From contig JASHSI010000056.1 of NCBI GenBank assembly GCA_030040915.1, positions 1-40,337 of the forward strand: 40,337 nucleotides of DNA. Direction: 5' to 3'. A program made the position numbers and the translations under genes. The stretch is from Thermoplasmata archaeon (GTDB taxonomy: Archaea; Thermoplasmatota; Thermoplasmata; Lutacidiplasmatales; UBA184). The notes below the pieces were generated by a model. The model did not search any database. It was not told the origin of the DNA and worked only from the letters and a program-made list of their open reading frames with translations. Of the stretch, positions 29,455 to 36,726 are shown piece by piece (within the stretch, counting starts at the first letter, position 1; the number at the start of each line of letters is the position of its first letter).

Positions 29455-29695
29455 CTGGCGCTTCAACGGAGGATGGACCTCCTTGCACCGGGCCCGGCTG
29501 CCAAAATAGGATCCCAGCGCTCCCACAGGGGCCACAAAGTTTAATCCTTCCCTACCTGCCGTGTCACGGCCGGACACGGTTCGCCTCGGCCGCTGCGGAC
29601 AGTGGTCCCTCCTCCCCGAGAGGCCCCCCTGCGGGAGACGCCCCGATTTCAGAATCCTTATGGATGACCCCGGGCATCGGCACTCGGCCGACCCG

Positions 29696-30472
29696 ATGAG
29701 CGCGGAGGAGATGCGCATCGTCGACACCCGCGACGAGCCGCTGCAGGGCGCGATGATGGTGGTCGGTTTCCCGACGCACGGGCTCGTCGGCTCGGTCGCC
29801 GCCTCCTACCTCGTCCACGCGCTCGACATGACGAACGTCGCCTACCTGACCAGCGACCGGTTCCCTCCGACGGTCATCATGGAGGAGGGGGTCGTGAGCG
29901 CCCCGGTGCGCTTCTACGTGAGCAAGCTCGTCTGCGGCGTCGACCGCTCCTGCGAGCAGCTCCTCGTAGGGATCTCCGACATCCAGCCCCCTCCCGAGGC
30001 GCTGCCCGAACTGTCCCGGGCGCTCCTCGACTGGGCGGAGCGCAAGGGGATCCAGCTCCTCGTGGTCGTCGAGGGCCAGCCGGTCGACGAGGGGATCACC
30101 GGGGACGCGCGGGTCGTCGCGATGGCGAACCGGGCCGCCGCCCCCCTCCTCGGGAAGTACAGCTTCGAACCCGCGAACGGGGTGATCACGGGGTTCGCGG
30201 GGGGACTCCTCCTCGCCGCGATCGGCCGGCAACTGCCGGTCCTCTGCCTCGTCGCCCAGGCCCACAAGGACTACCCGGACGCCCGGGCCGCGGCGAAGGT
30301 GATCGAGTCGGTGAACCCGCTCGTCCCGCTCCTCGTCCTCGACACCCGGCCGCTCCGCCAGAAGGCGGAAGAGATCGAGTCCGAGGTGCGGCGGACCCTC
30401 CGCCAGCAGGAGAAGGCGATGGCCGGGATGCGCTCCCCGGAGGTCGCGGGGCCGGGTGAGATGTATCGCTGA
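29696..30472 (+). CDS. PAC2-family protein (proteasome assembly chaperone-like)
   Basis: 258 residues. MMVVGFPTHGLVGSVAASYL (about 20-39) is the PAC2 N-terminal signature, with SDRFPPTVIMEEG, VVVEGQPVDE, and NGVITGFAGGLLLAAIGRQL then LVAQAHKDYPDARAAAKVIE later. Archaeal members (PbaB type) assist 20S proteasome assembly or bind ATPases. The C-terminal 40 residues form a charged helix (RQKAEEIESEVRRTLRQQEK). ATG 29696 was chosen for conserved similarity; a TATA-like TCCTTATGG lies about 40 nt upstream. It overlaps the next gene by 17 nt. Confidence 0.85.
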   Translation: MSAEEMRIVDTRDEPLQGAMMVVGFPTHGLVGSVAASYLVHALDMTNVAYLTSDRFPPTVIMEEGVVSAPVRFYVSKLVCGVDRSCEQLLVGISDIQPPPEALPELSRALLDWAERKGIQLLVVVEGQPVDEGITGDARVVAMANRAAAPLLGKYSFEPANGVITGFAGGLLLAAIGRQLPVLCLVAQAHKDYPDARAAAKVIESVNPLVPLLVLDTRPLRQKAEEIESEVRRTLRQQEKAMAGMRSPEVAGPGEMYR

Positions 30473-30962
30473 GACGGCCGACCGGGCGGTCCCTTCCCCG
30501 GTCCCCGCCGATCCGGGCCCGACCACCCTACGGCCGTTCGACGGCCGGGACCTCTCGACGATCGCGCAGATCGTCGCCGACTCGCTCCACGAGCACTACG
30601 ACAGCTCGCTGTACTTCTCCCTTAGCCAGGCGTGGCCAGACGGCTTCCTCGTCGCCGCCGACGCCTCGAACCGGCCGATCGGCTTCCTCCTCGGGGTGAG
30701 CCAGGTCCCCGGGGAGGCGCGCATCCTCATGTTCGCCGTCGACCGCCGCCACCGCACCCGGGGAATCGGCACCCGGCTCATGGACGCGTTCCTCGACAAG
30801 AGCCGCGCGAAGGCGATGCGGCGGGCCACCCTCGAGGTACGGGTCGGCAACGCCACCGCGATCCGCTTCTACGCCCGCTTCCGCTTCTCGGTCACCGACC
30901 TCCTCCGGGGATACTACTCGGACGGCGAGGACGGCTACCAGATGGCCCGCGACCTCGCCTAG
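30456..30962 (+). CDS. GNAT acetyltransferase
   Basis: 168 residues, RimI-like. TTLRPFDGRDLSTIAQIVAD, then ARILMFAVDRRHRTRGIGTR, where V-x-x-x-x-R-x-R-G-I-G-T is the acetyl-CoA pyrophosphate loop, and ATLEVRVGNATAIRFYARFR as the C-terminal GNAT signature. Likely acetylates a protein N-terminus or small amine. GTG 30456 overlaps the PAC2 gene by 17 nt, so the two are co-transcribed and possibly coupled. Confidence 0.85.
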   Translation: MRCIAETADRAVPSPVPADPGPTTLRPFDGRDLSTIAQIVADSLHEHYDSSLYFSLSQAWPDGFLVAADASNRPIGFLLGVSQVPGEARILMFAVDRRHRTRGIGTRLMDAFLDKSRAKAMRRATLEVRVGNATAIRFYARFRFSVTDLLRGYYSDGEDGYQMARDLA

Positions 30963-31010
30963 CGCCCACGGCGCGACCGCGGGCTGAGCCGGAGCTTCCC
31001 GGAGGAACGG

Positions 31011-31018
31011 CTTAAACC
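31011..31018 (+). promoter_or_regulatory. TATA box of the CBS-HPF gene
   Basis: CTTAAACC starting 35 nt upstream of ATG 31046; spacing implies a leaderless transcript. Confidence 0.65.
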
Positions 31019-31045
31019 CCCATTCCGGCTCCCCGTCGACCCCAC

Positions 31046-32278
31046 ATGCCCGAGAACTGGCCGAGCGCGCGGGAGCTGATGACCCCCCGACCGATCACCC
31101 TCTCGACCGACGCCCCGGTCTCGAAGGCCCTCGGCCTGATGCGGAGCGAGGGGATCCACGAGATCCCGATCCTCCGCAACGGCCGCCTCGCCGGGATGAT
31201 CACCTACGATTCGATCGCCCGCCGGTCGAACCTCACCCTGAGCACCAAGGTCGAGCACCTCATGGTGCTCCCCCCGCTGATCACGGCGTCGACCCGCTAC
31301 CCCGAGATCGCGCGGGAGCTCCTCTCGGTGGGGCTCCGGGGCGCCCCGGTCGTCGGCAAGAAGGGCGAGCTCCTCGGCATCGTCTCGCGGACCGACCTCA
31401 TCCGCGTCCTCCCGGACCTCTCGGAGATCTCCCAGCACCGGATCGAGGAGGTGGCGAGCCCCGCGAACGTCGTCCTCCGTGAGGACGACCCGTGCGCTCC
31501 GCTCCTCAATCAGGTCCGCATGCTCGAGGAGCACCCGATCCCGGTCCAGGACCGCACCGGACGGATTGTCGGGGCGGTCGGCCTCGCCGACCTCGGGCGC
31601 CTCCTGTGGCGCCGGAGCGTCCCCGGGAAGCGGGACGCGCCGGTCCCGACCGACATCAGCGGGGTGACCGTGGGCGCGATCATGAACTCCCCACCGCTCA
31701 CCGTCCCGCCCGGCGCGACGGCCGGCGACGCCGCCCGGGCGATGAGCCGGGCGAAGGTCTCGAGCGCCTTCGTCGTCGACGGCGAGCGGGCGGTCGGAGT
31801 GGTCGCCCAGTCGGACCTCCTGGGGCTCGCGGTCGGCCGCGGGGAGGTCCCGCCGGAGCTCTCCGACGTCTACGTGCAGATTCACGGGCTGCGGGGCTCC
31901 GGCGATCCGGACGCCCTCGCCGAGATCGACCAGCTCGTGGCGAAGGGGCTCAAGCGCGTCGCCCACCACGCCCACCCGACGCTCCTCAGCATCGGTGTCT
32001 CCCCCCACGCGGCCCGCTCGGGGGACGCGACCGTCCACGCCCGCCTCCAGACCGACCGGGGGATCTACTTCGCGACGGTCACGGGGTGGAACTTCTACGC
32101 TTCCGTCACCGCCGTCCTCGACGATATCTCCGAGCAGGTCCAGCGCGATCACGAGTCCGCCGAGCACCGGAGGAAGGGCCAGCCCGGTCGCCGCCGCCCG
32201 GTCGACGAGGCGCCGGCCGACCCCGAGATCGAGCGGAAGATCCGCGCCGCCACGTCCGACTCGGACGCGGACGAGTAG
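31046..32278 (+). CDS. four-CBS-domain protein fused to a ribosome-hibernation (HPF/RaiA)-like domain
   Basis: 410 residues. Four CBS units: about 8-62 (ELMTPRPITLSTDAPVSKAL), 68-125 (VEHLMVLPPLITASTRY), 135-190 and 208-265 (AIMNSPPLTVPPGATAGDAA). Residues about 278-375 (VYVQIHGLRGSGDPDALAEI, then TVHARLQTDRGIYFATVTGW, FYASVTAVLDDISEQVQRD) follow the beta-alpha-beta-beta-beta-alpha pattern of HPF/RaiA. The tail is charged and disordered. Known families: CBS pairs bind adenine nucleotides; HPF binds the 30S decoding region. Inference: a nucleotide-sensing ribosome-silencing factor. Start supported by the TATA at 31011. Confidence 0.8.
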   Translation: MPENWPSARELMTPRPITLSTDAPVSKALGLMRSEGIHEIPILRNGRLAGMITYDSIARRSNLTLSTKVEHLMVLPPLITASTRYPEIARELLSVGLRGAPVVGKKGELLGIVSRTDLIRVLPDLSEISQHRIEEVASPANVVLREDDPCAPLLNQVRMLEEHPIPVQDRTGRIVGAVGLADLGRLLWRRSVPGKRDAPVPTDISGVTVGAIMNSPPLTVPPGATAGDAARAMSRAKVSSAFVVDGERAVGVVAQSDLLGLAVGRGEVPPELSDVYVQIHGLRGSGDPDALAEIDQLVAKGLKRVAHHAHPTLLSIGVSPHAARSGDATVHARLQTDRGIYFATVTGWNFYASVTAVLDDISEQVQRDHESAEHRRKGQPGRRRPVDEAPADPEIERKIRAATSDSDADE

Positions 32279-32310
32279 CGGGAGCGGCGCGGGGGACGCG
32301 GAGCGAGACC

Positions 32311-32721
32311 ATGATGCCCGGAGGACCCCGGAACGCTCGCCAGATGCAGATGATGATGCGCCGGCTCGGAATGACCAGCGAGGAGGTCGAGGGCGTCACC
32401 GAGGTGATCGTCCGGACGAAGGACCGGGAGCATGTCTTCCGTTCGCCGGAGGTCACCAAGGTGAGCGTCCAGGGCGTGACGACCTACCAGGTCGTCGGCG
32501 AGCCCGAGATCCGTCCGCGCTCGGCGGACCCCGTTCCCGGCGCGCCCGCGGCCGCCGCCCCCCCGGCCCCGGCGGGTCCTCCGGAAGAGGACATCGCGCT
32601 CGTCATGGAGCAGGGGGGCGTCTCTCGCGCGGAGGCGATCGAGGCGCTCGGCCGGTCGGGCGGCGAACCGGCCGAGGCGATCCTGAAGCTCCTCTCCCAG
32701 AAGGGTTCGGGTGGCCGATAG
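32311..32721 (+). CDS. nac: nascent polypeptide-associated complex protein (archaeal NAC)
   Basis: 136 residues. N-terminal basic helix (NARQMQMMMRRLGM), NAC domain EVIVRTKDREHVFRSPEVTK then TTYQVVGE, an alanine/proline linker, and a C-terminal UBA domain EEDIALVMEQGGVSRAEAIE. It binds ribosomes and emerging chains. The NAC/UBA arrangement is diagnostic of archaea. The ATG 32311 follows the CBS-HPF gene by 32 nt and the gene overlaps the next by 11 nt, forming a translation-related cluster. Confidence 0.93.
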   Translation: MMPGGPRNARQMQMMMRRLGMTSEEVEGVTEVIVRTKDREHVFRSPEVTKVSVQGVTTYQVVGEPEIRPRSADPVPGAPAAAAPPAPAGPPEEDIALVMEQGGVSRAEAIEALGRSGGEPAEAILKLLSQKGSGGR

Positions 32722-33172
32722 TCCGGGCGGACCCTTCCGGGAGTGCGTCGAGGGGTACGTCTTCGCGGGCCGGCCGCCTCGTCTCCTCCTCCTCCGACGC
32801 CCGCCGGAGCGGGAACGGATCTGGGTGCCGGTCAGCGGGAAGGTCGAGACGAGCGACCCCAATCTTGAGGCCGCGCTGCGCCGGGAGCTTGAGGAGGAGA
32901 CCGGGTTCCGGGAGTTCGCGCGAATCTTCCCCCTCGACTGGGAGGTGACGTTCGAGGGTCCGGACGGGCGGACGTGGCGATTGCACGGGTTCGGGGTCGA
33001 GCTCGACCGGGCCGAGCCGCCCCGACTGAGCGAGGAGCACGACGCCTTCGAGTGGGTCGACCCTGCCGAGGCGATCCAGCGCCTGCACTACCCGGACAAT
33101 CGGGAGGCGGTGGAGCGCCTCCTCGAGCGGCTCCCCCGAGGCGCGACGGCTCGGCGTTCGGCAAACCTATAG
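32711..33172 (+). CDS. NUDIX hydrolase
   Basis: 153 residues. WVPVSGKVETSDPNLEAALR then RELEEETGF is a NUDIX box in which the core R-E-x-x-E-E-x-G is intact; the G-x5-E start of the motif is altered, with the loop around TSDPN. Probable pyrophosphatase of a nucleotide such as dihydroneopterin triphosphate, Ap4A or an oxidised NTP; substrate unknown. GTG 32711 overlaps the NAC gene by 11 nt. Confidence 0.83.
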   Translation: MADSPGGPFRECVEGYVFAGRPPRLLLLRRPPERERIWVPVSGKVETSDPNLEAALRRELEEETGFREFARIFPLDWEVTFEGPDGRTWRLHGFGVELDRAEPPRLSEEHDAFEWVDPAEAIQRLHYPDNREAVERLLERLPRGATARRSANL

Positions 33173-33173
33173 C
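33165..33173 (+). promoter_or_regulatory. TATA box of dph2
   Basis: ACCTATAGC, about 31 nt upstream of ATG 33204. Confidence 0.6.
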
Positions 33174-33203
33174 CCGCCCCCCGGGTCCGTCGTCCGAGCG
33201 ACC

Positions 33204-34274
33204 ATGGAAGGAGCCGAGGGTCCCTGGCCGTCGGCCGGGAAGGCGACCGGACCCATCCCCGGGACGGTCCGCCCGGAGGCGGACGTCTTCCCGCGCTTCG
33301 ACGAGCCTCTCTTCGAGGCGGTCCGCCGCGCCCACCCCACCAAGATCGCCCTGCAGGTGCCGGCCGGGCTCGTCCGGAACGCGCACGACCTCGCAGCGGA
33401 GCTCCGGCGGGCGGTCGACCGGCCGGTCGTGGTCGTCTCCCGGGCCTGCTTCGGGGCGTGCGACTTCCCCGCCCCGGACGAGGTGCCCGGGGCGGACGCC
33501 CTCGTCGTGCTCGGTCACTCCCCGATCCCGAACGTCCCGAGATGGGCCCCGACCTACTTCGTGGAGATGCGCTATCCGCCCGGCGAGGCCGAGCCGCTCG
33601 CGGAACTGCTGGTCCAACAGGACCTCCCGAAGAGGCTTGGGCTCGTCGCGTCGGTCCAGCACCTCGACCTCGTCGAGCCCCTGGTCCGGGCGGCCGCCGA
33701 CCGTGGGTTCGAGCTCCGGACCGGTGCGGGGGACCGCCGCCTCGCCTACGCGGCGCAGGCGCTCGGGTGCAACTACACCGGGGCCGAGTCGATCGCGGAC
33801 TCCGTCGCCGGCTTCCTCTTCCTCGGGACGGGCCGGTTCCACCCGATCGGGCTCGCCCTCGCCGTCGACCGGCGGGTCTGGAGCCTCGATCCGCTCCAGG
33901 GGACGCTCGAGCCGCCCCTCGACCGCGCCTCGATCGTGGCCGACCGCTTCCGCACGATCGCCCGTGCGATGGACGCGAAGCGGTTCGGGGTCCTCGTCTC
34001 GAGCTTCGCGGGCCAGCACCGGGGCGGCCTCGCCTCGGCGCTCGTGGAGAAGGCCCGACGACGGGGGCGCGAGGCGGAGATCCTCGTCTTCGCCCGACTC
34101 GATCCGGCCGACCTTGTTGGCCGGGACCTCGACGCCTACGTCAACACGGCCTGTCCCAGGATCGCGATCGACGACGCCGCGCTCTACCCGCGGCCGATGC
34201 TCACGCCGCCAGAGTTCCTCTCGGCGATCGGGGAGCTACCGCTCGAGCCGTACCGGTTCGACACCTACCACTAG
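33204..34274 (+). CDS. dph2: diphthamide biosynthesis radical enzyme Dph2
   Basis: 356 residues. Three dispersed cysteines of the unusual [4Fe-4S] radical-SAM site are visible: SRACFGACD (C82/C86), ALGCNY (C189) and NTACPRIAIDD (C317), spread over three similar domains. The archaeal Dph2 homodimer transfers a 3-amino-3-carboxypropyl group from SAM to the histidine of elongation factor 2, the first step of diphthamide. The TATA at 33165 supports this start. Found in archaea and eukaryotes only. Confidence 0.93.
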   Translation: MEGAEGPWPSAGKATGPIPGTVRPEADVFPRFDEPLFEAVRRAHPTKIALQVPAGLVRNAHDLAAELRRAVDRPVVVVSRACFGACDFPAPDEVPGADALVVLGHSPIPNVPRWAPTYFVEMRYPPGEAEPLAELLVQQDLPKRLGLVASVQHLDLVEPLVRAAADRGFELRTGAGDRRLAYAAQALGCNYTGAESIADSVAGFLFLGTGRFHPIGLALAVDRRVWSLDPLQGTLEPPLDRASIVADRFRTIARAMDAKRFGVLVSSFAGQHRGGLASALVEKARRRGREAEILVFARLDPADLVGRDLDAYVNTACPRIAIDDAALYPRPMLTPPEFLSAIGELPLEPYRFDTYH

Positions 34275-34831: not shown

Positions 34832-35419
34832 TCATCCGAGCGTCGATTCGAGGAAATGGTCGAACAGCCGCAGGTCGCCGGAAAGCTCCGGGTGGAAGGT
34901 CAGGCCCCAGACCCGGCCGCGCCGGACGCCGACGACCTCCTTCCCCTGCCAGGCGAACGCTTCGGCGCCGGGGCCGACCCGAAGGATCCTCGGGGCCCGG
35001 ATGAACACTCCGGGGAACTTGGCTCCCGTGAGCCCGTTGACCTCCACAGGTCCCTCGAACGAGTCGCGCTGCCGGCCGTAGTCGTTCCGCCGGACGGTGA
35101 CGTCGAGGACCGGGATCGGGACCGGGTCCCGCGGACCCGCCACCGTCTCGATCTCGCGGCTCAGGAGGATGAGCCCGGCGCACGTCGCCAGGACCGGTAG
35201 GCCCTCCTCAATCCGGGACCTCAGCGGGTCGCGGAGCCGCGTCTCGTCGAGCAGCCGCGAGATCGTGGTGCTCTCCCCGCCGGGCATCGACAGCGCCTCG
35301 ACCTCGGCGAGCTCCGCCGGCCTGTGGACGAGGGTTACCGACCCCGGCCCCGCCACGCGCTCGAGGGAGGTCCGGTGCTCGGGGACATCCCCCTGGAGCG
35401 CCAGCACGCCGAGCTTCAC
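34832..35419 (-). CDS. pdxT: pyridoxal 5'-phosphate synthase glutaminase subunit PdxT
   Basis: 195 residues. KLGVLALQGDVPEHRTSLER, GGES (47-50), nucleophile C80 in ATCAGLILL, and H176/E178 in GLTFHPELSGD complete the class I glutamine amidotransferase triad. It supplies ammonia to PdxS for PLP synthesis; pdxS is not in this window. GTG 35419 overlaps the HMG-CoA reductase stop (GTGA), so it is translated from the same mRNA. Confidence 0.93.
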   Translation of the reverse strand: MKLGVLALQGDVPEHRTSLERVAGPGSVTLVHRPAELAEVEALSMPGGESTTISRLLDETRLRDPLRSRIEEGLPVLATCAGLILLSREIETVAGPRDPVPIPVLDVTVRRNDYGRQRDSFEGPVEVNGLTGAKFPGVFIRAPRILRVGPGAEAFAWQGKEVVGVRRGRVWGLTFHPELSGDLRLFDHFLESTLG

Positions 35420-36726
35420 CGCGCGGCGGGGCGGCGTAGCTCCTCCAGGACCTCGCGCGCCCGGTCGATCCGGATCGCGTGTTCCTCCACGAGGCGCGCG
35501 ACCACGCGGTCGACCTCGTCGGGCCGGGCGCCCGCCGTGGCCGCGATGTTGCGCGCGTGGAGCTCCATGTGGCCCCGCTGGATCCCCTCCGTCGCGAGCG
35601 CGCGGAGGGCGGCGAAGTTCTGGGCGAGCCCGACGGCGGCGAGGATTCCCGCGAGCTCCTGGGCCCCCTTCACGCCGAGGAGCTTCACGTTCGCCTTGGC
35701 GGTCGGGTGCACGGCCGTCGCGCCCCCGATGAGGCCGACCGCCGTGGGAAGCTCGATCGTCCCGACGAGGTTCCCGTCCGCGTCCTTCTCGTAGGTGGTG
35801 AGCGGCCGGACCACCTCGCTCCCGTCGCGGGCGAGGAAGGCGGCGTAGGTGTGGGCGCCGCTCTCGATCGCCCGGAAGTCGTTCCCCGTGGCGATCACGA
35901 CCGCGGAGACCCCGTTCATGATCCCCTTGTTGTGGGTGGCGCATCGGTACGGGTCGACGACGGCGAGGGTGTAGGCGTCGAGGATCGCCTCGACGACCTC
36001 GGCGCCGCTCGCCTGGTCGGTCTTCAGGAGGGCCGCGGGGAAGACCGCGCTCGCCCGGGCAAGCCGCTCGACCGCGAGGTTCGATATGATGCGGAGCACC
36101 GCCCGTCCCCGGGCAAGGCGGGCGATCTCCGGCGCGAGGGCCTCGCACATCGTGTTGACCGCGTTCATCCCGCCGGCGTCGCGCGCGTCGACGAAGAGGT
36201 GGACCACGAGCATCGTCCCGCGGGGCGAGGCGATCAGGCGGACCTCGACGCCGCGGGCCCCCCCGCCGAACTTCACGAGCATCGGGTCCTTCGCGTTCGC
36301 CTTCGAGAGGAGCTCCTCCTTCGCCGCGAGGATCCGCAGCCGGGCCGCGGCCGGGTCGGCCGAGCCAAGGACCTGGATCTGGCCGATCATCACCGGCTCG
36401 GTGGTCTGGACCTTGAACCCCCCTGCGGCCCGTGCGACCTTCGCCGCGTTCGAGGCGGCCGCGACGACGCTCGGCTCCTCGATCGCCATGGGGACGAGGT
36501 AGTCCTTCCCGTTGATCCGGAAATTCGTGGCGATGCCGAGCGGCAGCGCGAACGCCCCGACGACGTTCTCGATCATCCGGTTGAAGATGCCCGGATCGAC
36601 GCCGGGGGGGAACTCGTAGGACCTCGCCTCCGCGTCCGAGAGCCCGGCCCACTCCTGGATGAACTTCCGCCGCTCTTCCGTAGAGAGCTTGTAGAACCCG
36701 GAGAGCTCGCTCGTCCGCTCCGCCAT
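35416..36726 (-). CDS. class II 3-hydroxy-3-methylglutaryl-CoA reductase
   Basis: 436 residues. Class II features: PLGIATNFRINGKDYLVPMA then IEEPSVVAAASNAA (catalytic glutamate E83/E84), DARDAGGMNAVNTMCEAL (cofactor/aspartate region), THNKGIMNGVSAV (catalytic lysine) and GHMELHARNIAATAG (catalytic histidine). It reduces HMG-CoA to mevalonate for isoprenoid lipids. Thermoplasmatales and Archaeoglobus use this bacterial-type class in place of class I. Starts 9 nt after the grpE stop and overlaps pdxT, so grpE-HMGR-pdxT is one operon. Confidence 0.93.
   Translation of the reverse strand: MAERTSELSGFYKLSTEERRKFIQEWAGLSDAEARSYEFPPGVDPGIFNRMIENVVGAFALPLGIATNFRINGKDYLVPMAIEEPSVVAAASNAAKVARAAGGFKVQTTEPVMIGQIQVLGSADPAAARLRILAAKEELLSKANAKDPMLVKFGGGARGVEVRLIASPRGTMLVVHLFVDARDAGGMNAVNTMCEALAPEIARLARGRAVLRIISNLAVERLARASAVFPAALLKTDQASGAEVVEAILDAYTLAVVDPYRCATHNKGIMNGVSAVVIATGNDFRAIESGAHTYAAFLARDGSEVVRPLTTYEKDADGNLVGTIELPTAVGLIGGATAVHPTAKANVKLLGVKGAQELAGILAAVGLAQNFAALRALATEGIQRGHMELHARNIAATAGARPDEVDRVVARLVEEHAIRIDRAREVLEELRRPAAR

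Follow-up and report, generated by a model that had tools for sequence, protein, structure and literature searches.

A probable Thermoplasmatota orthologue of the ribosome hibernation factor HibA, encoded next to the NAC gene

The hibA locus and its gene neighborhood

The window (the whole stretch of 40,337 nucleotides analysed here, contig JASHSI010000056.1 of the Thermoplasmata archaeon assembly GCA_030040915.1) contains an open reading frame for a 410-aa protein with an ATG start and a TAG stop, the exact coordinates of which are 31046-32278 on the plus strand. The features of this region are as follows:

29561..30472, plus strand: gene of the PAC2 / proteasome assembly chaperone family, with an uncertain start codon (PF09754, 5.3e-39)
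30456..30962, plus strand: Ard1/RimI-type N-terminal acetyltransferase gene, upstream of hibA (4pv6 ARD1, 4e-31; TIGR01575, 1.1e-20, below cut-off)
31012..31016, plus strand: TATA-like element TTAAA, 30-34 bases upstream of the ATG (from the sequence)
31046..32278, plus strand: hibA, 410-aa HibA family protein with four CBS domains, an HPF/RaiA domain and a C-terminal tail (full-length match to 9sr9_H)
32311..32721, plus strand: NAC (nascent polypeptide-associated complex) gene (TIGR00264, 110.8 bits against a cut-off of 80, 4.4e-32)
32711..33172, plus strand: NUDIX hydrolase gene, overlapping the end of NAC (PF00293, 1e-16)
33204..34274, plus strand: Dph2-type diphthamide synthesis gene (TIGR03682, 1.6e-72)

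The genes from PAC2 to Dph2 (29561-34274) form a cassette on one strand, mostly concerned with proteostasis and translation. Farther downstream, a minus-strand ORF (35416-36726) appears by eye to be HMG-CoA reductase-like.

The full-length hibA frame is kept throughout the genus with 50-74% identity, which rules out a chance or artefactual frame, and the start codon aligns at offset 0 in all 30 of the genus loci fetched first. The long ORFs that overlap hibA (e.g., 31492-32721) are G+C-rich open frames and were rejected; NAC is only the end of one of them. Judged by query coverage, full-length homologues are present in 36 of the 37 genus genomes, with a partial one in the remaining genome (G015), and in 23 of the 24 other genomes of the class. 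A phylum-wide profile search matches 138 of 145 genomes, a figure that includes many CBS-only rows and is accordingly not counted for HibA. The named homologues, with 55-73% identity, come from Thermoplasmata metagenome-assembled genomes (MAGs), including that of Candidatus Lutacidiplasma silvani (Candidatus Lutacidiplasmatales), and the host belongs to a Thermoplasmatota family close to Candidatus Lutacidiplasma that is represented here by MAG records. A search of the literature on Lutacidiplasma or hibernation identified nothing useful among the matches listed.

In the window's genome, which is 85% complete, there is no second match to the HPF model and no locus other than hibA with more than two CBS matches. 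Second copies are seen in two other genomes: a divergent one in G022 (L051:1757-2962), which shows 38% identity to the window protein and lacks the tail motif described below, and a partial one in G007 with 41% identity. An in-frame TAG is listed within the HibA matches of G036 and G008 (L014:1504-2742, L027:1501-2727); as judged from the frames, the codon is probably the normal stop of the gene, close to where the match ends.

The gene context is well conserved. In the first 30 genus loci, hibA is accompanied, always on the same strand, by NAC (29 loci), PAC2 (28), the Ard1/RimI-like acetyltransferase (28), NUDIX (23) and Dph2 (23); the only NAC miss is a locus (L029) that ends 10 bases past the hibA stretch, and several misses of the other neighbors also fall at locus ends. 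In two loci from another family of the order (L038 and L041), an Ard1/RimI-like homologue is located about 1.5 kb from hibA on the opposite strand.

The initial annotation had placed the gene immediately before NAC, and the TIGR00264 match (110.8 bits) together with the gap of 32 bases between the hibA stop and the NAC start bears this out. The NAC model was run over 61 genomes and the matches were compared with the hibA positions. NAC directly adjoins hibA in all 35 genus genomes with a NAC match (two of the 37 have none) and in none of the 21 other class genomes with such a match (three of the 24 have none, and G059, counted among the 21, lacks a clear HibA). The two genes are also adjacent in two further genera of the family (L075 and L076); the L077 locus ends too soon. 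In 34 of the 35 family loci, the NAC start lies -4 to +40 bases from the hibA stop, five of them having an overlap of four bases, and this spacing is consistent with the two genes probably being co-transcribed. The adjacency thus suggests co-expression, but given that it may stem from one evolutionary event, it is weak evidence of a joint function. In addition, 34 of the 35 family loci contain an A+T element about 28-34 bases before the hibA start, a pattern picked after reading the loci. Such spacing fits a near-leaderless transcript, so that hibA probably begins a transcript of its own.

Domain architecture and relationship to HibA

The protein encoded by hibA consists of the following parts:

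31067..31414, plus strand: CBS1 and CBS2, the first Bateman pair, about residues 8-123 (PF00571 matches at 31067-31225 and 31253-31414; model)
31436..31606, plus strand: CBS3, about residues 131-187, with Gly179 in place of Ser/Thr and Asp182 kept (model elements 151-187; alignment)
31607..31663, plus strand: CBS3-CBS4 loop, about residues 188-206, at the site that in Pyrococcus abyssi HibA carries the 'PTC loop' (alignment; pLDDT < 50 at 190-199)
31670..31828, plus strand: CBS4, about residues 209-261 (PF00571, 49 bits)
31865..32179, plus strand: HPF/RaiA domain, about residues 274-378 (models, Foldseek, structural realignment)
32180..32275, plus strand: family-specific C-terminal tail, about residues 379-410, with a helix at 393-403 and the motif [DE][LIV]Ex[KR][IL]R (alignment, models)

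The four tandem CBS domains span about residues 6-264. The Pfam profile PF00571 matches the window protein with an E-value of 1.3e-36, and CBS matches are present in all 26 homologues. Three of the CBS stretches pass alone; CBS3 (about residues 130-190) is too weak for a Pfam match of its own and takes the form of a CBS unit in the full-length AlphaFold2 model (nine sequences, mean pLDDT 77.8). In this model, the four CBS units are followed by a strand (276-280), a helix (288-306), three strands (311-320, 328-336 and 340-347), a helix (350-378) and a short helix (393-403). The model superposes on four-CBS modules over about residues 1-267, e.g., on 9znf_4 (Z 25.9, rmsd 3.2, 250 aligned), on the AMP-bound SSO3205 (3ddj; Z 25.4, rmsd 3.7, 260 aligned) and on Dri (Z 22.5, rmsd 4.4, 253 aligned), so that the modelled module resembles the ribosome-bound CBS factors SriA/SriB and Dri as well as AMPK-gamma.

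The HPF/RaiA domain is at the limit of detection by sequence profiles. Ribosomal_S30AE matches the window protein with an E-value of 0.034 and 15.3 bits, below the cut-off of 23.7 bits; across the family, 20 of the 26 members match at E <= 1, the best with 1e-7. The C-terminal 140 residues (271-410), when predicted alone, adopt the HPF topology, with a pLDDT of 90-95 for most 10-residue blocks of the core. A Foldseek search of the PDB with this model identifies 35 matches at E <= 0.001; judging by their titles, all are of the HPF/RaiA/pY type. In the VIA structural realignment, rows 1-33 are of the same type, with Z from 12.7 to 8.0 (e.g., 6h4n_x, Z 12.6, rmsd 1.9, 95 aligned), followed by row 34 with Z 7.2. 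On the strength of the lone prediction, Foldseek and the realignment, another fold for this domain is rejected. The initial annotation had proposed to compare residues 278-375 with HPF; this range is close to that of the predicted domain, about residues 274-378, which is followed by a tail to residue 410.

A search of the PDB with the family profile (26 homologues) identifies 9sr9_H as the best match, with an E-value of 5.8e-59; a single alignment (profile 6-374, chain 4-380) covers both domains. The window sequence alone retrieves the same best match (E-value 2.3e-17), with an identity that is low by eye. This chain of 392 aa was named 'Dehydrogenase' by its depositors, but we infer that it is P. 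abyssi HibA, which has the same length in PMC13324472 and the residues named in that paper for its two deleted insertions, 283 SAL 285 and 324 KFRGVHL 330, both present in the chain. The fold library, with releases up to 8 April 2026, does not list the 9sr9 entry, and the model was compared with other HPF and CBS structures. The long CBS3-CBS4 loop of HibA is found in the window protein, about two residues shorter than that of 9sr9_H by manual count on the alignments, and its residues W188, G194, K195 and D197 are invariant across nine sequences. The loops at both archaeal HPF insertion sites are, by eye, of similar or greater length in the alignments with 9sr9_H. Thus, the Pfam CBS matches, the lone HPF fold prediction and the full-length match to 9sr9_H confirm the fusion of CBS domains with an HPF/RaiA-like domain that the initial annotation had proposed. 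That the C-terminal fold is merely HPF-like, in a CBS regulator unrelated to hibernation, would agree with the sub-threshold Ribosomal_S30AE match; it is hardly tenable in view of the matches to known folds, all apparently of the HPF/RaiA/pY type, and the homology to 9sr9_H over the full length.

The HibA family comprises archaeal ribosome hibernation factors and was described in April 2026 ('A family of ribosome hibernation factors widespread in Archaea', Nat Commun, PMC13324472), with the CBS + HPF architecture reported in 47% of archaeal genomes. In P. abyssi, the HPF domain sits in the 30S channel and the CBS module takes three positions on the 50S subunit; the module is more than a sensor because it binds the ribosome itself, occupying tRNA sites of the 50S (PMC13324472). 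According to the paper, the P. abyssi and T. barophilus proteins bind ribosomes, inhibit translation, preserve 70S and speed up recovery, and deletion of hibA in Thermococcus barophilus results in slower recovery and fewer 70S ribosomes (PMC13324472). An SBDS-type protein, the second factor on idle ribosomes in that study (PMC13324472), is also encoded in the window's genome.

By analogy with the two characterized HibA proteins, and given the architecture, the predicted fold and the full-length homology, the gene is very probably the Thermoplasmatota orthologue of hibA. Its product would park ribosomes and block translation, so that 70S ribosomes stay intact and escape degradation until the cells grow again, and the CBS module may allow an adenylate to modulate this activity. 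The fusion guessed from the raw sequence therefore belongs to a real archaeal ribosome hibernation family, and HibA is extended, with evidence at the fold level, to a Thermoplasmatota family.

Adenylate-binding motifs and the C-terminal tail

The adenylate ribose/phosphate motif of CBS domains is G-x-x-[ST]-x-x-D, and it was read in 35 sequences of the family and 19 others of the class. In the family, CBS2 has Ser in 35 of 35 sequences and Asp in 32. In CBS3, Gly replaces Ser/Thr in all 35 family members and in 15 of the 19 other sequences, and the Asp is kept in all 35. CBS4 is more variable, with Ser in 14, Gly in 11 and Ala in 10 of the 35, and Asp in 28. The window protein retains Asp182 and Asp257 and has Gly179 (CBS3) and Ala254 (CBS4) at the canonical Ser/Thr positions; the motifs of 9sr9_H read T..D in both domains. 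Given these replacements, the nucleotide site may differ from that of P. abyssi: judging from the motifs, the window family could still bind adenylate via the aspartates, could bind it at CBS1/CBS2 instead, or could have lost binding.

The isolated CBS module of P. abyssi HibA binds AMP, ADP and ATP with Kd values of 12 uM, 65 uM and 113 uM, respectively, and nucleotide is seen at the CBS3/CBS4 interface (PMC13324472). In the main text of the same paper, native ribosome-bound HibA has no visible nucleotide, and AMP or ATP do not clearly change its ribosome binding, classes or positions. The 'direct energy-state control' put forward in the initial annotation is therefore unsupported as stated. 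A switch in which AMP or ATP at the CBS module directly toggles ribosome binding would fit with the adenylate binding of CBS modules, with the AMP preference of the P. abyssi module and with the resemblance of the model to AMPK-gamma and to the AMP-bound SSO3205 module (3ddj). Nevertheless, the largely unchanged P. abyssi classes and positions, along with Gly179 and Ala254 in the window protein, make such a switch unlikely. Alternatively, the CBS module might be a regulated docking part: depending on nucleotide state, it would be handed from the ribosome to a partner that sequesters it, or back, which would make energy control indirect. This was proposed from pulldowns in the discussion of the HibA paper (PMC13324472). 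In line with it, a variant of the GNAT acetyltransferase Pat2 co-purified with the haloarchaeal CBS+HPF protein HVO_2384, the sole result for HVO_2384 in the cited passages of PMC12607858, and an acetyltransferase gene adjoins hibA in 28 of 30 loci. Any partner in the window lineage is putative, however, and the neighbor is Ard1/RimI-like, so docking of this kind is possible but doubtful.

In the tail (32180-32275), a basic linker leads to a conserved [DE]LEx[KR][IL]R helix, and the end is acidic. Measured from residue 366, i.e., including the end of the last HPF helix, the C-terminal part is 40-53 residues long in the family (median 43) versus 14-34 (median 17) in non-family sequences. The pattern [DEGV][LIV][EA]x[KR][ILA], picked after reading the sequences, occurs in all 35 family tails and in none of 20 others (the 19 class sequences and the paralogue L051); by eye, the motif is also present in L075 and L077. 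Among 32 non-redundant members, the mean pairwise identity is 0.53 for the motif versus 0.31 for the preceding linker. With the 27-residue tail as the query, hibA itself is the sole match in the window's genome, although short divergent helices would escape such a search.

The C-terminus of P. abyssi HibA is located near the mRNA exit channel and the SD:antiSD duplex (PMC13324472), so that the tail would start there, and our guess is that its helix binds a partner. A speculative reading, for which the chances appear slim, is that the family has a variant HibA in which the adenylate site has moved to CBS1/CBS2 or has been lost, and the new helix, carried on its basic linker, spans the distance between the 30S mRNA exit channel and a partner, be it the UBA domain of NAC, another ribosome or the 3' end of 16S; if true, ribosome parking would be coupled to the nascent-chain machinery. 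No earlier report of the NAC link or the tail was found in one open-access library or by word look-ups in the main text of the HibA paper, and the word NAC is absent from that main text (PMC13324472). The conserved tail and the hibA-NAC adjacency are thus possibly lineage-specific novelties. The tail, the NAC spacing and the changes in the CBS3/CBS4 motifs are relevant to the question of what the CBS module senses, if it senses anything.

Comparison with known systems

The fold of the C-terminal domain is common in bacterial HPF/RaiA/pY proteins and long HPF, which lack a CBS module. In long HPF, the HPF domain is N-terminal and a dimerization domain occupies the C-terminus; the window protein has no such domain, its HPF part being C-terminal and followed by only about 32 residues with one short helix. 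In archaea, aRDF is described as the 30S-30S dimerization factor of P. furiosus.

Several ribosome-bound CBS proteins are similar to the N-terminal part of the window protein. Dri of Pyrobaculum calidifontis (PDB 9e6q, 9e7f) is likewise a ribosome-bound CBS protein, but as presented in the HibA paper it contains two CBS modules (eight CBS domains), with an HPF domain not described there (PMC13324472), whereas the window protein has one four-CBS module followed by HPF. SriA-SriD of Methanosarcina acetivorans are, according to the titles of PDB entries 9znf, 9zng and 9zni, CBS proteins on 70S ribosomes; the matched chains, of 257-281 residues, are too short for a four-CBS module plus HPF, and the literature search returned no paper on them. 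By its description in mBio 2025 (PMC12607858, in the passages cited), HVO_2384 of Haloferax volcanii, with tandem CBS domains and a C-terminal hibernation-factor-like domain, is comparable in architecture. The CBS domain-containing protein of PDB entries 9l96, 9l98, 9l9c and 9l9v (406 aa) matches the family profile over both domains (E-value 3.1e-44) but has a much longer CBS3-CBS4 loop than the window family.

The closest counterpart is HibA itself. The initial annotation was right in joining CBS domains to a ribosome-silencing fold in archaea; given that this architecture has been published for P. abyssi and T. barophilus HibA (PMC13324472), the idea of the fusion is not new. Both the fusion and the hibernation role are already in print, and the window protein is a further member of the family; its added value beyond the known HibA is small but testable. 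Like P. abyssi HibA, the window protein combines four CBS domains, a CBS3-CBS4 loop and an HPF/RaiA domain in the same order (410 versus 392 aa); it differs from P. abyssi HibA in the extra conserved tail, in Gly/Ala at the Ser/Thr positions of CBS3 and CBS4, and in the presence of NAC and Ard1-type neighbors.
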